A stretch of DNA of 39,858 nucleotides, taken from Candidatus Gottesmanbacteria bacterium. GTDB lineage: Bacteria; Patescibacteriota; Microgenomatia; UBA10105. This document shows, piece by piece, positions 15,385 to 31,868 of the stretch. The notes beneath the pieces are model-generated. The model had not been told where the DNA came from, searched no databases, and saw only the letters and a program-made list of their open reading frames with translations. Every line of letters starts with the position of its first letter. Position 1 is the first letter of the stretch. The stretch is from NCBI GenBank assembly GCA_023245415.1, contig JAHFKJ010000014.1:1-39858 (forward strand), given 5' to 3'. The position numbers and the translations under genes were made by a program.

Positions 15385-16854
15385 CTATAATAACAATTTT
15401 GCTGAAGAATTCACCTGTAAAATTAAATCTTTGACGTCAGGTCTTGAAACATCAATAGGTTCAGAAAACCCGATAGCTATCAATACCCATGATTTCTTAG
15501 GATTTTTTACTTCTTCCCAAACTCGTTCTGAATAGTCTAACAAGTTTTTATCTTTTCCTACGAACCAATATATCGCAGTCGCTTTATTATCATCAAGGCT
15601 TAATTTTCTGACTCGAAAGTCATTTATTTGGAATATCTCACTATTGCTAATAGTATGCCCTAATCCCTGTAAACAAATTTCTGGATCATGATGTGTGCGT
15701 GCAGATTTACTTGAGACAACTAGTAACGAGAATTGAATACCGTCTTTGGTTTGACCTGTAAATTTTTTACTAAATTCTACATCACTATTTACAAAATAAG
15801 ACTCTTCAGCTCTACTAAAAGCAAGATCACTAAGGATAATACTATTTAAGGTGATTGAGTAAGCTGTTTGTTGTTTATACGTATTAACTATGTCTGTATC
15901 TTTTATGAAAGCAACTTGCAGTAGTAAAAAGAATGAAAAGAAGATTATGGAAAACAATTTTACGTTTCCTTTTAACCAAGTTGGTTTTACTTCATTTAAT
16001 GTTTTTCTGGATGTCAAAGAAGGCACATATTTATTAGTTAGATACCACAGCGAAATGCAACTGGCTGTAAATCCCAATATACCTAGAACAAGATGAATTG
16101 CGTCTCCAGCCCATTTCATATCAAGAACGTCATAAATATAAATTAAGCTAAATACTCTCCATGTATTAAAAAAGAGCAAGGATATAAAAAATAAAACCGT
16201 AATAGCGATTAGTTTTACTGAAAGACGCACATTTTGTAAAAAATATGTACTTAGCATAAAAAGTCCACCTGTATAAATACTCTTCACACCGCTACAGGGT
16301 AAATCTATGCTTGTTGCATGATTTTCAGTGACAATGACAGCTGAATTTGATACATTCCCAATACCGGTAATCTGTAATATTGATCTGACAATATTTGCAG
16401 TAGCAAGCCGTATCGGAAAACCTAAAAACTTCTGGACTCGTTCTAAAAGAGGTAGGGTGAAGATAAGAATTAAAAAAACATAAATACTTCGTTTCCAGAA
16501 TTGTCGCTCAAGATAAAAACCAAGGAGGCAGTATACTCCAAGGAAAAATAATATCGCTGGAACAATGCTAAGCTTAAAGATCACTGCATTAACGATATAT
16601 AATATTAAAACTCCAGTAAGAGAAATAAAGGGAATGGTTTTGTTTTTAGGAGAAATTAATTGTTCTTTCTTAAGAACTGAGATAATAAATATAGTAGAAA
16701 CAAGAATAAAGCCAATACCATTTTCGTAAAATTCACGACTTGTAAACGTGTGCCAAATGTAAACAATCGCTTGTCTGAAAAATAAAATGAAGAGAAGTAT
16801 TAAGAGGAAGTCATACCAATTAAAATTTTTTAGTCTTTCGGATACTTTGTTCAT
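15385..16854 (-). CDS. Exosortase/archaeosortase-family transpeptidase fused to a C-terminal EpsI-like domain
   Basis: Polytopic; DLPCSGVKSIYTGG (Cys187), NTWRV (Arg233), DAIHLVLG (His254); C-terminal THHDPEICLQGLGH resembles the EpsI motif. Confidence 0.88.
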   Translation of the reverse strand: MNKVSERLKNFNWYDFLLILLFILFFRQAIVYIWHTFTSREFYENGIGFILVSTIFIISVLKKEQLISPKNKTIPFISLTGVLILYIVNAVIFKLSIVPAILFFLGVYCLLGFYLERQFWKRSIYVFLILIFTLPLLERVQKFLGFPIRLATANIVRSILQITGIGNVSNSAVIVTENHATSIDLPCSGVKSIYTGGLFMLSTYFLQNVRLSVKLIAITVLFFISLLFFNTWRVFSLIYIYDVLDMKWAGDAIHLVLGILGFTASCISLWYLTNKYVPSLTSRKTLNEVKPTWLKGNVKLFSIIFFSFFLLLQVAFIKDTDIVNTYKQQTAYSITLNSIILSDLAFSRAEESYFVNSDVEFSKKFTGQTKDGIQFSLLVVSSKSARTHHDPEICLQGLGHTISNSEIFQINDFRVRKLSLDDNKATAIYWFVGKDKNLLDYSERVWEEVKNPKKSWVLIAIGFSEPIDVSRPDVKDLILQVNSSAKLLL

Positions 16855-19819
16855 AGATCGGTTGCAAAACTACTTGAAGTTTCTTTCGATAAAGATAGCA
16901 CAATAACAATGAACCTATGATAATAAGAAGCCATTCGTGAGGTTCAGGAACTGCACCAACTTCTAATATACCCTTACCAGATGGATCAGCGAGTCGTTCT
17001 TCACCAATATCAAAAGCTATTTGATACCGATTATTTGCTTTCATAGCTGCTGCTAATTGCCTCTTTTGTTCTTCGGTAACAAGTACGATCATTGAGGAAT
17101 ATGGTGTTACAACTGAAGATAATTCAGAAAGACGATTGAGACTATCAAGAGTTGCAATATCTGATGTGTCTTTTTTCCTTATGCCATCAATAATAATTTT
17201 TTTATATGCCAATTGATTAAATGGGTTAGCAGGATCGCTTATCAGACCCACAGTAATTATTGGCTGCAGTACCCAAGTTCCATATTCATTCACATCAAGA
17301 ATAATCCCACTCGTTTCCCCTTCTCTTATTTTCTTCTGTAACCATAAATCTTCAACTGCATCATATCCATTCTCAACGACTTTTCCGCCACTTTGTAAAA
17401 TGGTTGTGGCAAGAGGATCATTATAGATCGGTATATGATTTTCAGGTTGAATAAGATAGATTGGAGCATTTGAGGTTATTGAAAAATTTTCTGGTTTTCC
17501 ATCAAAAGAACCACTATCAGTTACCATAAATATTGCATAATAGGAATTTGGTAATTGCAGCAAAGCACCTAGTCGATCTGTTTTTCCTATGGGTATGACT
17601 TTCAAGCCTTGATTTAGTGAACTATCTGTCAGTGAAATTTTTTGACTTATCTTATCGTTAAAAAAGAAAAGATCGACTGTATTATTCTTAAGTAAATAAT
17701 CTATAGGAAAGTTTTGCTTAAGGTATGAAGTCCAATCCCTTTGTTTATTGCTATAAGAGCTATCAAGTAATATGGCAATATGTTGCCCTTGTATTATTTC
17801 ATTAGCTTTAGAAAAATGATCCTGGCATGAATAGAGACCAGCCAATTTTTGATTAGTTGCATGTGGGATAAAGATAACCTGTCCACTAAATGTTTGAGTC
17901 GAAATAGGAGTTTTTGGACAAGGTTGTGCGGTAGTTGTTATATATTGATTATTTGATGCCGGTTGGACATTTTTTCCTTCAAATATATATTTTGTAGTTG
18001 GATTGTTAAGAATATTTCTTTGCTCTTGGACTACAGGAAGTTGTATGCCTTGAGTATTAATGACAGTTACATAAGAGTATCTAACCTTTTGATTCTTATC
18101 TAAAATAAACTCAGGATTACCAATTTGAGGTCTCCCATCCTGCATTCGTGGCTTAACAGGTATTGGGAATACTCGTAGCTTATATTGACGAGGTCCAGCT
18201 TGTTCAAGAAGTGCAGGATCTTGTCTATATAAGATTTGATTTTCATAGGTTTTGTTTGCTGCACCTTTTGGTGCAACTACTGTATTGTTGCCTTGTTCAG
18301 ATGTTGTAATTTGCTGGAAAGAAGATGGTGTTTGATTACTTTGAGATTGTCGAGAAGGAATAGGTTTATCTGCTGCATTAGCACCAAATTGCAAATCTGG
18401 TCCTAACTTTAACTCTGTTAGCGCTGAATCATCTGGTAGAGAAAATTCGTAGTAAACTTCTTGAGGTTGATCGGTTGTATTTTCATATTCTTCCTCAATC
18501 GTTACTTTGGCAAGTAATCCATCATTGTAGAGGGTTACATTTACTACTCGATTAACAACTTTAACGGATTTCTTATTAAGATCAAGAATGCCCGCTTTTA
18601 ATTGATCTTGTGTATTTGTAGCTTTAAGAGTATTAGAAATTTCATTAAGTTCTCCTTTTTGGATAGAGTTATCAAAAATTTCTTTATAATCCTCTACTGA
18701 TTTTTTAATCTCATCTTCAAAAGCCCCTCTATACACAAAAGGCAATGCAAGGTTATTAAATGTACGTTGAAAAAACTGTGCTGTAGATTCATTTGCTCCA
18801 AGCTCATTTTTATATCCAATCTGGATAATATTCATTTTGTTATCGCTCAAATAGCGATACTGTGCAAGATAGGAAGAAACTAGGTTATTTCTAATTTCCT
18901 TATCACTGTTTAATAACTCTTGTGCTACTTTTTGTCTGTCTTCAAACGTAGCTGCATTACGATACTGTGATATTACGTTTGTGTACCGATTCGCACTAAC
19001 CTGAATAGAAAGAATAAGAACAACGATTATAAAAACGGCACTAGTTCCATATCGTAATAATCTGGAATAGTTCAAACCATAGTGATGTACCAGCTGCTTA
19101 TAAAGGAAACTACATGTTTTCCAAAAAGTAATAAATGCTCCAATTGGGCCAAGTATAAAGAAGCTTGCTGTCAAAAGAAAAAGCATTATGGCAAATAAAG
19201 ACAGCAAAAATATTAAAATTCCACTATGCACTAATGTATCTCCTAGATCTTGGAACATATTTCGTATACCAATGTAATCTTTAAGCAGGTAGGCTATAAC
19301 AATTGGTAGAAAAAAGAAGGCTAAAAGGTAAGCGTAACTTGTCAATATGAGAGCTATTTGTTGAGAAAGCATAAGCAATGTCTGTTTAGGTTTTGACATT
19401 ACTTTGGGATAGAGAAGATGAATAAGTAATCCTACAACACTCACTACAATACTAATGAAGAAAATCCAAACGATAGGTGTGACTTGCCTTAAGAAGATAA
19501 TTCGAATTAGCACTAAACCCATTAACGGTATTTGAAATCCGAAGAAGAGTTTTATTAAATTTTCTGGTTGCCGCCGTATTTTCGTGAAGAAACCTAATGC
19601 CATGGTAATAAATGGTAGAAAAACTAACCCATAAATCATCACTAATACATTTGTAGGCGCATGACCAAAAGTAAGAATATCTGTAAAATTGGGCCGGCGT
19701 AACGAAGTGGTAAGAATATTTAAGAGAACTAAAATCAAAAAGATAGAAAAGATAAGGTTATAGCCCCAAAAGATTACATAGGAGACTTTTCCCGATAATA
19801 TTTTTCTTACATTTTCCAT
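16820..19819 (-). CDS. Multi-TM VIT/vWA-like protein with C-terminal PEP-CTERM-type sorting signal (putative dedicated exosortase substrate)
   Basis: N-terminal TM segments; VVNRVVNVTLYNDGLLAKVTIEEEYENTTDQPQEVYYEFSLPDDSALTEL (VIT-like); AILLDSSYS (MIDAS-like); C-terminal VPEPHEWLLIIIGSLLLCYLYRKK. Confidence 0.85.
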   Translation of the reverse strand: MENVRKILSGKVSYVIFWGYNLIFSIFLILVLLNILTTSLRRPNFTDILTFGHAPTNVLVMIYGLVFLPFITMALGFFTKIRRQPENLIKLFFGFQIPLMGLVLIRIIFLRQVTPIVWIFFISIVVSVVGLLIHLLYPKVMSKPKQTLLMLSQQIALILTSYAYLLAFFFLPIVIAYLLKDYIGIRNMFQDLGDTLVHSGILIFLLSLFAIMLFLLTASFFILGPIGAFITFWKTCSFLYKQLVHHYGLNYSRLLRYGTSAVFIIVVLILSIQVSANRYTNVISQYRNAATFEDRQKVAQELLNSDKEIRNNLVSSYLAQYRYLSDNKMNIIQIGYKNELGANESTAQFFQRTFNNLALPFVYRGAFEDEIKKSVEDYKEIFDNSIQKGELNEISNTLKATNTQDQLKAGILDLNKKSVKVVNRVVNVTLYNDGLLAKVTIEEEYENTTDQPQEVYYEFSLPDDSALTELKLGPDLQFGANAADKPIPSRQSQSNQTPSSFQQITTSEQGNNTVVAPKGAANKTYENQILYRQDPALLEQAGPRQYKLRVFPIPVKPRMQDGRPQIGNPEFILDKNQKVRYSYVTVINTQGIQLPVVQEQRNILNNPTTKYIFEGKNVQPASNNQYITTTAQPCPKTPISTQTFSGQVIFIPHATNQKLAGLYSCQDHFSKANEIIQGQHIAILLDSSYSNKQRDWTSYLKQNFPIDYLLKNNTVDLFFFNDKISQKISLTDSSLNQGLKVIPIGKTDRLGALLQLPNSYYAIFMVTDSGSFDGKPENFSITSNAPIYLIQPENHIPIYNDPLATTILQSGGKVVENGYDAVEDLWLQKKIREGETSGIILDVNEYGTWVLQPIITVGLISDPANPFNQLAYKKIIIDGIRKKDTSDIATLDSLNRLSELSSVVTPYSSMIVLVTEEQKRQLAAAMKANNRYQIAFDIGEERLADPSGKGILEVGAVPEPHEWLLIIIGSLLLCYLYRKKLQVVLQPIYEQSIRKTKKF

Positions 19820-26799: not shown

Positions 26800-27372
26800 T
26801 TATAATCCGAGCTCTTCGTGATGATTTTGCATAGCAGAAAGAGAAATTTGGATAAATTCGTGAAGTGGAATTTTTAATTTCTCCTCGCATTGGGCAATTT
26901 GCGTGCGATCAACAGCTTTCGCAAATTCTTTCGTTTTCCATTTTTTGAGTATAGATTCAATTTTGACGCTGGCTATTTTTTTATCAGGCATTACCAGTGT
27001 GACCGCAACAATAAATCCAGTTAATTCATCACAAGTCTCCAATGCCCACTCCATCTTTCCCTCAAGTTCAGCCAGGTAAGTAAACTTGCGATTATGCGAC
27101 ATAAGCGCATGCACAATTGGTCCTTCGGAAATTCCTATTTCTTTTAACCAATTGAGAGTATGTTTAGTATGCTCGTTTGGTTTATCTTTGGTCTCTTCCC
27201 AATCTGCGTCATGAAGTAGTCCCAATACTTCCCATTCTTGAGGATCATATCCAAGTTTTTGTGCTAATGCTTTCATTGTTACTCCAACAGCAAACATATG
27301 CCGGCGCAAGTTTTGATTTAGTGTGTGTTTATGAAGTAATTCTAATGCCTGATCTTTAGTTAACATATTCAA
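26800..27372 (-). CDS. HD-domain phosphohydrolase
   Basis: RRHMFAVGVTMKALAQ; EVLGLLHDADWEE; ALMSHN. Confidence 0.88.
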   Translation of the reverse strand: MNMLTKDQALELLHKHTLNQNLRRHMFAVGVTMKALAQKLGYDPQEWEVLGLLHDADWEETKDKPNEHTKHTLNWLKEIGISEGPIVHALMSHNRKFTYLAELEGKMEWALETCDELTGFIVAVTLVMPDKKIASVKIESILKKWKTKEFAKAVDRTQIAQCEEKLKIPLHEFIQISLSAMQNHHEELGL

Positions 27373-29666
27373 GATACTATTCCCTGAAATTCAACGTTTC
27401 CTCCGCAGTACTTAACTATTTTCTCGACAGATTCCTGAAGTGATCGGTAAACTTGTTCTGGTGTTATATCGAATACTCCATCTACATTGATCCAGATATT
27501 TTTTGTCTTTTCCGTCACCATGGTTCTTTGTGCATCGCGAAAATTAAAGTCAATGTTATATCCCCCAATTTGGTCATAGTAGGCAATCTCCCTAGCCGTA
27601 TATAGTGTAGGTTCCTCGTCCCCCAATAATATTATTTTGTCGCCTTCTTCTGCATAACGCAAAACGGTCGGAAAATTTACTCTATCCGCATCAAAAGCAC
27701 CAACAGACACGCGATGTTTCAGCACAACTAGATTGTACGCATCAACACAGGTATTTATAGAATAAAGTCCTTTTCCGAGCACCACACGACGCAGCAAGGC
27801 CTCTGGTGAAGGCCGGCGCGAATGCCAATCGACACCCATTTCTTTATATAATTTCCGATAACTCACAATTTCCGGAAATTTTCCCATTTGTTCAGTCGTC
27901 AAATTCAAAAGCGATGAAAAAAGTTCCTTCTTTTCTTTCTCTAGATCCGCTTTGGTATGAAGTATTTTGACTCCATTAATTATGGCAATTCCGATAGAAA
28001 TATGCGGATATTTTGTCTTAAGTGTAGAGTCAACCGTAATAAATTGAGGTTTTTGTATAGTTTTTATGTTAAATACATTCTTCTGCGGTTGCTGAGACTT
28101 ATTGAGAAGCAAACGCTCAATTACCATATCAAGTGGAAATTTCTTGAGTAACCAACCGGCCCGAGGACCGTGAGATCTATCAAGCACAACTGTATACAAA
28201 GCTTTAAATGCATCCAAAAGATCAATGTTTAGTGCTTGGGCCAACAGAAAAATTTCTGATTGCAATTTTTCAGGCTCCTTAGCTTGCATCCATATCTTTG
28301 CCAGATCATTTAAAAATTCCCATTGGTTTTCAGATATATTAATTTCATTATATGGTTTTATTGATATTTGATATCGGTATTCATCCGGTGCATATTTACC
28401 TAACCAGATAAATGAATATGTCAATCGTTCTTTTACGATGTTTTTCTCTAAAAGAGTTAGTTTCGCTCCTTTGATTTGTTCAAATCTATCAAGTAATTTC
28501 ACATTTGGCAGTTGGGCGAAATTTGCGACATCGCGAAAGCGAGGTATAAATATTTTTTCTTTTGAATGATTTCCACTAATCTGGGCCATCTCAAAAGCCC
28601 GAGACAAATTTTCATTTGAACCGTTGAAATATGCCTGCCAACACCGGTCGTATTCATCGAACAAATCCGAGATATACATATTCCCTACCGGATCGAAATT
28701 GATCGCCTGATTATAGTCAGTCCGCGTAAATAGAAATCGCAGTAAATAAGGAGGCAAAATTTCTGATATTTCTTTTGCGGATGATCCTAACCCTTTACTC
28801 GATGACATTTTTTTACCTCCGACAAGGAAAAATTCATAAGCCACAGGATAAGGAATTGGGTAGTGAAGAACTTTTTCACATACCAGCTTTGCTACATCAT
28901 GTGACCCGCCGGCACTCATATGATCCTTACCGGCTCCTTCAATCGTCACTCCAATTACTTTCCATTTTACCGGCCATTCTACTTTCCAGGGTAACTTTCC
29001 GGCATATTTCCCATTTCCACTAAAAGGAGAAACTTTCCCTTCTGTTCCACACCCTTTTGTCCAATTTACTGCATCAACGTTGCATACAAATGTCACATCG
29101 TTCCCATCCCAAGCAGATATTTTCGTAGTTGATTCTTTACCACAAGTTGGACATACTACCTGAAACGGGTACCAATTATCGGGCAATTTTTTCTTGTACA
29201 TTTTTTCATATATCTTACGGATTTCAGAAGCATTATCTAAGCACATTTTTACTGCACTATTCATTTTGCCTGATTTGTATATTTCACTCATCCAGATGAT
29301 ATCGGGATAACAACCTATTTTATTAAATACTTTTTTAAATTCTTGTGCATAATACTGACCAAAATGTGCAGATTTTCCATCGGGAGAAGGAATTGTAAAT
29401 AAAGGTTGACCTAAATATTGATTCCAGATTGTCTTATCTAAGTATTGTGGCAAAGCATCCATCGGATCATGATCTTCAAACACATATGTAAAAGTTGCTT
29501 TTTGTCCGGCAGAAACTAAAGCTTTAAATATCAAGTCATGTATGACTATACCTCGCAATGAACCGACATGAATTCTGCCAGATGGCGTTTTCATGTCGTC
29601 TACCCAATACGGTTGGTATTTACCGGAATTTATTATTTTTTTAACTATCTTATCTGCCCAAAACAT
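27369..29666 (-). CDS. lysS: Class I (archaeal-type) lysyl-tRNA synthetase with C-terminal B3/4-like domain
   Basis: TPSGRIHVGSLRG, CPTCGKE, VGGKKMSSSKGLG; C-terminal ~225 aa (YRKLYKEMGVDWHSRRPSPEALLRRVVLGKGLYSINTCVDAYNLV) B3/4-like. Confidence 0.92.
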   Translation of the reverse strand: MFWADKIVKKIINSGKYQPYWVDDMKTPSGRIHVGSLRGIVIHDLIFKALVSAGQKATFTYVFEDHDPMDALPQYLDKTIWNQYLGQPLFTIPSPDGKSAHFGQYYAQEFKKVFNKIGCYPDIIWMSEIYKSGKMNSAVKMCLDNASEIRKIYEKMYKKKLPDNWYPFQVVCPTCGKESTTKISAWDGNDVTFVCNVDAVNWTKGCGTEGKVSPFSGNGKYAGKLPWKVEWPVKWKVIGVTIEGAGKDHMSAGGSHDVAKLVCEKVLHYPIPYPVAYEFFLVGGKKMSSSKGLGSSAKEISEILPPYLLRFLFTRTDYNQAINFDPVGNMYISDLFDEYDRCWQAYFNGSNENLSRAFEMAQISGNHSKEKIFIPRFRDVANFAQLPNVKLLDRFEQIKGAKLTLLEKNIVKERLTYSFIWLGKYAPDEYRYQISIKPYNEINISENQWEFLNDLAKIWMQAKEPEKLQSEIFLLAQALNIDLLDAFKALYTVVLDRSHGPRAGWLLKKFPLDMVIERLLLNKSQQPQKNVFNIKTIQKPQFITVDSTLKTKYPHISIGIAIINGVKILHTKADLEKEKKELFSSLLNLTTEQMGKFPEIVSYRKLYKEMGVDWHSRRPSPEALLRRVVLGKGLYSINTCVDAYNLVVLKHRVSVGAFDADRVNFPTVLRYAEEGDKIILLGDEEPTLYTAREIAYYDQIGGYNIDFNFRDAQRTMVTEKTKNIWINVDGVFDITPEQVYRSLQESVEKIVKYCGGNVEFQGIVS

Positions 29667-30929: not shown

Positions 30930-31868
30930 ATGAGTTACTATACAAAAAAGCGCAAAAGCAACTGGATTATTCATATACTTCTAACCTGGTCATTAGTAAT
31001 CTTCACCATAAATACCTGGCTGTTTTTGTCAGATAGGTTTCTTATCACTTCTCCTACTCAAGAAACGGTCAAGATTCATAATGAAAACAATTTAGCGGTT
31101 TTAAAATCCCAATCAAAAGATTTCAATGAATTATCTCAGTCAATTAAATCATATCTTGATAAACAAAAAGGTGTTTATTCAGTATATGTTTACGATATAA
31201 ATAAAAACCAAAGCCTCGGCATTCATGAAGCTACGATCTATACCGCTGCTTCTATAAATAAAATACCCATATTAGCTGCGCTTTATTACGAAACACAACG
31301 AGGTGTAATTGATCTTGATAAACGGATTACAATACAGCAAAGTGATTTGCAGGATTATGGCACCGGTATTTTGCGCAATGAAGGACCCGGAGGTGTTTAT
31401 TCATTCAAAACTCTTGCCCAGTTTATGATGGAAAAAAGCGATAATACCGCAGCCTTTATCATAACTCAAACTGTAGGCGACGCAAGAATCCAGGAACTCA
31501 TAAATAGCTGGAATATGCTTCAAACTGATTTTGAAAATAATAAAACTTCAAATAAAGACATGGCTGCATTACTTATTAAGATGTACCAGGGAAAAATAGC
31601 AAACCAGGCACTTTCTCAAGAAATGATAGGCTTTTTAGATAATAGTGACTTTGAAAATAGATTACCTCGATTACTTCCTAAAGACGTTAAAATCTATCAT
31701 AAAATCGGAAATGAAACTGGGTTTGTACACGATGTCGGCATTGTCGCATTACCCAATAGTCCTTATTATATTGGAGTTTTAAGCAGTGAAATTACTGTTG
31801 AAGAAGAAGCTGAAGAAACTATTGCTCAAATTTCGAAGTTAACTTACGATTTTATGATCAATCGTTAG
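30930..31868 (+). CDS. Membrane-anchored class A beta-lactamase-like serine hydrolase
   Basis: N-terminal TM; AASINKIPILAALYYE (SxxK); MEKSDNTAAFII (SDN); YHKIGNETGFVHDVGIV. Confidence 0.88.
   Translation: MSYYTKKRKSNWIIHILLTWSLVIFTINTWLFLSDRFLITSPTQETVKIHNENNLAVLKSQSKDFNELSQSIKSYLDKQKGVYSVYVYDINKNQSLGIHEATIYTAASINKIPILAALYYETQRGVIDLDKRITIQQSDLQDYGTGILRNEGPGGVYSFKTLAQFMMEKSDNTAAFIITQTVGDARIQELINSWNMLQTDFENNKTSNKDMAALLIKMYQGKIANQALSQEMIGFLDNSDFENRLPRLLPKDVKIYHKIGNETGFVHDVGIVALPNSPYYIGVLSSEITVEEEAEETIAQISKLTYDFMINR

Follow-up and report, generated by a model that had tools for sequence, protein, structure and literature searches.

Exosortase O (XrtO; TIGR04489) and the integral-membrane PEP-CTERM protein family TIGR02921 are both already catalogued in NCBIfam. 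One three-member PEP-CTERM family was described as exceptional because it is integral to the membrane (Haft 2006, PMC1569441), and the name given to TIGR02921, PEP_integral, suggests that the two correspond. A comparable arrangement of one exosortase and one VIT protein is found in the XrtN system (TIGR04476/TIGR04477). Searches of open full-text literature for exosortases together with Patescibacteria or CPR returned nothing on point, and no literature naming XrtO, TIGR02921, XrtN, or MSEP-CTERM was found in these searches.

The window (the whole stretch of 39,858 nucleotides that was analyzed) contained a target ORF of 999 aa at 16820..19819 (minus strand) and an xrtO ORF of 489 aa at 15385..16854 (minus strand), both where the preliminary description had placed them. 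The 3' end of the target gene and the 5' end of xrtO overlap by 35 bp (16820..16854, minus strand), which implies cotranscription; the pair is real and conserved, and the homologous genes in a second genome also overlap. The two genes most likely form an operon encoding exosortase O and one dedicated substrate (probability of about 0.85). The gene secA was found upstream of the pair, with further housekeeping genes nearby (serS, lysS, and lon also lie on the contig) and a methyltransferase gene downstream. No polysaccharide cluster was found around the pair in the window neighborhood, unlike most exosortase loci, which such a cluster surrounds (PMC12188702). Genomes of the same class ranged from 0.5 to 1.7 Mb in size, consistent with the small-genome, CPR-like organism proposed from the sequence. 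Elsewhere in the window, an ORF adjoining the Lon gene (30930-31868, plus strand) was annotated as encoding a beta-lactamase-family protein (PF13354, 162 bits) that may be peptidase-like instead of a resistance determinant. The ORF at 27369-29666 (minus strand) was annotated as encoding an archaeal-type lysyl-tRNA synthetase (TIGR00467, 350.8 bits; cutoff, 147.55) with approximately 245 additional C-terminal residues outside the model match.

The window enzyme, with 8 predicted transmembrane (TM) segments and a C-terminal EpsI-like domain, is XrtO based on its match to TIGR04489 (293.1 bits; cutoff, 250) and PF09721 (88.9 bits; gathering threshold, 25.7), and peptidase/transpeptidase activity is predicted from its sequence. 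The next-best subfamilies, XrtT (77 bits) and XrtN (62.9 bits), scored far under their cutoffs. The predicted catalytic residues were Cys187 (codon at 16294..16296), which begins the C-S-G of LPCSGVKS; Arg233 (16156..16158), which ends NTWR; and His254 (16093..16095), which begins the HLVL of AIHLVLG, all on the minus strand. The EpsI-like domain (DUF3485/TIGR02914 type) spans residues 313 to 489 (15388..15918, minus strand) and contains the motif THHDPEICLQGLGH (15655-15696, minus strand), with HDPEIC starting at residue 389. Matches to PF11984 (DUF3485/EpsI) were under the cutoff of 26.1 bits for both the window copy (16.7 bits) and its homolog in G051, a genome of the same class but a different order (24.2 bits). 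The domain was assigned because of the HHDPE.C motif, the match to the XrtO model over model positions 11 to 447, and the TIGR02914 match in the G051 homolog (E = 1.4e-4). The residue numbers of the triad stand as they were originally read, and the fused C-terminal domain is probably EpsI-like. An AlphaFold model of XrtO built from two sequences (pLDDT 46) was too poor for judging the active site.

The target ORF was annotated as encoding a TIGR02921-family integral-membrane PEP-CTERM protein (374.5 bits; cutoff, 200). The scores of the two proteins against their family models greatly exceed what chance would give. Its polytopic N-terminal membrane region (residues 22 to 272; 19004..19756, minus strand), identified by hydropathy and an AlphaFold model, contains approximately 7 TM helices (7 to 8 segments in a simple Kyte-Doolittle scan and 7 helices in the model). 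A VIT-like domain at about residues 433 to 610 (17990..18523, minus strand) was supported by PF08487 (39.0 bits; gathering threshold, 26.5), which covered the start of the VIT region, and by Foldseek similarity to inter-alpha-inhibitor heavy chain. A vWA-like domain (17420..17794, minus strand) was found as an alpha/beta segment with pLDDT mostly of 70 to 79 and Foldseek vWA matches; of the MIDAS signature (DxSxS with a distal Thr and Asp), DSSYS was seen at residue 686 (17750-17764, minus strand), and the domain itself is suggested by the fold match. With the low-confidence model of the whole target (mean pLDDT, 52), the top Foldseek match was inter-alpha-inhibitor heavy chain 1, which contains VIT and vWA (E = 9e-8); the matches ranked after it were vWA domains with less significant values. 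A TPYSS motif, presumably akin to a motif in VIT/vWA proteins, was nearly invariant across all 6 aligned relatives.

The C terminus of the target (residues 957 to 985; 16865..16951, minus strand) forms a PEP-CTERM-like tail consisting of VPEPHEW, a TM helix, and YRKK. These three parts were visible and conserved, although the match to the generic PEP-CTERM model TIGR02595 was under the cutoff (12.7 bits; cutoff, 16). All of the features that had been read from the target sequence were present. Of the models proposed for checking both proteins, exosortase and VIT scored above their cutoffs and DUF3485 and TIGR02595 scored below theirs. Further TIGR02595 matches in the genome (contigs C40 and C43) were ruled out as PEP-CTERM proteins, as they were without a PEP motif. 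A tail profile built from two sequences gave the window tail 92 bits and the next sequence 12.6 bits, and no second VPEP-type tail was found in this assembly. As far as these profile searches extend, the target would be the one substrate of XrtO.

Five frames in this genome passed the TIGR04178 exosortase signature cutoff; the four besides XrtO were short and arranged in pairs on contigs C25 and C8. The idea of a one-substrate module thus held for XrtO but not for the organism. XrtO could instead act more generally and process further substrates, such as proteins with VPEA or VPE tails encoded elsewhere in the genome; a 654-aa protein on contig C25 carries the tail APVPEAALLLVPAALLAPKL. The gene for that protein, however, has its own pair of short exosortase-like genes beside it, its tail differs from VPEPHEW, and the VPEPHEW profile matched the window protein alone, so that a general role for XrtO appears unlikely.

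In G051, the pair recurred in the same gene order at 42% and 33% identity, and the catalytic Cys, Arg, and His, the HHDPE.C motif, and AVPEPHEW were all identical. Conservation of both the triad and the gene adjacency agrees with what the preliminary description had expected of the pair. The G051 enzyme homolog scored just under the TIGR04489 cutoff (236.8 bits; cutoff, 250). The genome G632, from another class of this phylum, encodes a TIGR02921-like protein ending in SMPESETHVILL, a TM helix, and K; an exosortase domain is encoded approximately 5 kb away from it and an EpsI-like gene, separate from the former, approximately 1 kb away. XrtO was the best match of each of the latter two (38 and 26 bits). 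This split enzyme has NWIH where N..R was expected, and its EpsI part is without HHDPE.C, so that this copy may be inactive, judging from these motifs. The G632 locus (L080:4584-13740, contig C23), with its divergent split XrtO, tailed target, and nearby PadR-like gene, is possibly a decaying or altered system.

TIGR02921 relatives without an adjacent exosortase included a second copy on another contig of this genome (G000 C6), along with those in G037, G158, G187, G354, and G051 C150. None of these 6 had a tail with a PEP motif beside the helix; they instead had stretches rich in Gly along with a TM helix and basic residues. The tail was present in 2/2 targets adjacent to XrtO versus 0/6 orphan relatives (Fisher test, P = 0.036) and in 3/3 versus 0/6 when the divergent G632 locus was added (P = 0.012), in small tests comprising two clear XrtO loci, one divergent locus, and orphans that are mutually related and not independent. 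Tail presence tracked the adjacent enzyme, which supports dedicated pairing. Several tailless relatives (L055:7068-10415 [G000 C6], L060:763-3996, and L061:7283-10618) had an N-terminal extension like the NusA N-terminal domain (PF08529 in L060, 25.8 bits; cutoff, 23.8; weaker in L055 and L061; PDB NusA, E = 0.0017), so that these membrane proteins would carry a domain resembling that of a transcription factor.

An XrtN or MSEP-CTERM type of system had been suggested from the sequence, and XrtK is a further candidate of this kind. Weak matches to the XrtN system were found for both the target (32.3 bits; cutoff, 250) and the enzyme (cutoff, 200), yet XrtO and TIGR02921 passed their own cutoffs, with the enzyme at 293 bits for XrtO versus 63 bits for XrtN. 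For MSEP-CTERM (TIGR04286; cutoff, 150), no match to the window protein was listed at E values up to 10. These scores refuted an XrtN, XrtK, or MSEP-CTERM identity, leaving it a negligible probability. The pair could also be a foreign or misbinned fragment, as XrtO exceeded the cutoff in only 1/380 genomes of the phylum, the window enzyme being the sole copy, and the GC content of the pair (32 to 34%) is under the window mean (37%). This origin is nevertheless very improbable, given the ordinary housekeeping genes on the contig, the second TIGR02921 copy carried by a different contig of this genome, and the same-class genome in which the pair sits on a contig carrying a ribosomal protein cluster. 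More broadly, PF09721 was above the cutoff in 9/351 genomes of the class and the TIGR04178 signature in 25/374 genomes. Profile scans of plasmids and viral contigs found no XrtO relatives. In an XrtO scan of genome contigs, the sole matches were EpsI-like genes standing alone in Chthoniobacter and Lentisphaerales, whose genomes gave no TIGR02921 match.

The four short exosortase-like genes belong to a separate, apparently undescribed system with VPE-type tails, represented in this genome by L053 (G000 C25; 1188-2685 and 3415-5379) and L054 (G000 C8; 14-2012) and in others by L065, L066, L069, L070, L119, L121-L123, L126-L129, L132, L134-L136, L142, and L143. Members of this family are about 180 to 220 aa in length with the pattern WNC[IVL]GWQ[ST]...N..R...H. 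Those scanned matched the general signature only and reached no NCBIfam subfamily cutoff. Their genes often directly adjoined those for large proteins tailed with VPE[KNRY], a TM helix, and basic residues. Tails were found in 19/217 ORFs located up to 4 kb from an exosortase versus 2/145 farther off (P = 0.002), counts that include the two XrtO loci and mechanically called ORFs and use a pattern partly derived from the same loci. Longer exosortases (305 to 321 aa) with small proteins tailed VPEFS, a TM helix, and basic residues were present in L062 (9625-10901) and L063 (9017-9979 and 17158-17622), the two genes being adjacent in L062 and approximately 7 kb apart in L063. These loci may represent a third type of sorting in this class.

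For the XrtO pair, we infer the topology, the cleavage, and the acceptor as follows. The substrate would insert via its N-terminal helices, and 7 helices with the N terminus inside would place the ectodomain outside, with the VIT/vWA domain on the outer face and the C terminus tethered by the VPEPHEW-TM-RKK signal. By the positive-inside rule, the C-terminal helix with RKK would turn back inward. XrtO, with Cys187, Arg233, and His254 on the outer membrane side, would cut near the PEP motif, and the new C terminus would be left free or handed to a putative lipid or glycan acceptor. The VIT/vWA domain may be adhesive or sensing. Because the N-terminal helices already hold the protein, processing would modify, activate, or link the ectodomain and probably hardly serves as primary anchoring. 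Surface sorting, as originally proposed, is doubtful as a mechanism, because approximately 7 TM helices already embed the target. One tentative and rather improbable extension is that the organism is a small-genome bacterium, probably dependent on a host, whose XrtO matures the membrane-held VIT/vWA surface protein by joining its C terminus to a putative acceptor. The product would be a surface device with two attachments, perhaps used in cell contact, and giant proteins with VPE tails would be handled in that cell by the second, undescribed exosortase family.

A dedicated exosortase-substrate pair is now placed in a rare, little-studied lineage, and from it a wider system of short exosortases and VPE tails was found within this class. 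Tailed targets with XrtO and tailless relatives without it provide a natural comparison in which the pairing is testable. Compared with described exosortase O, the window enzyme matches near full length, with the triad and a putative C-terminal EpsI-like domain, and differs in its host lineage. The target passes the TIGR02921 cutoff along both halves and shares the polytopic N terminus, VIT region, and PEP-type tail of that family, whereas the additional copy encoded by this genome, like relatives elsewhere, is without the tail, and several of these proteins carry the NusA-like extension. The target ectodomain, judged by Foldseek, has the VIT plus vWA architecture of inter-alpha-trypsin inhibitor heavy chain, a eukaryotic plasma protein that differs in having neither a polytopic membrane region nor a sorting tail. 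The XrtN system, far under whose cutoffs the window pair falls, is a good analogy rather than a matter of membership.
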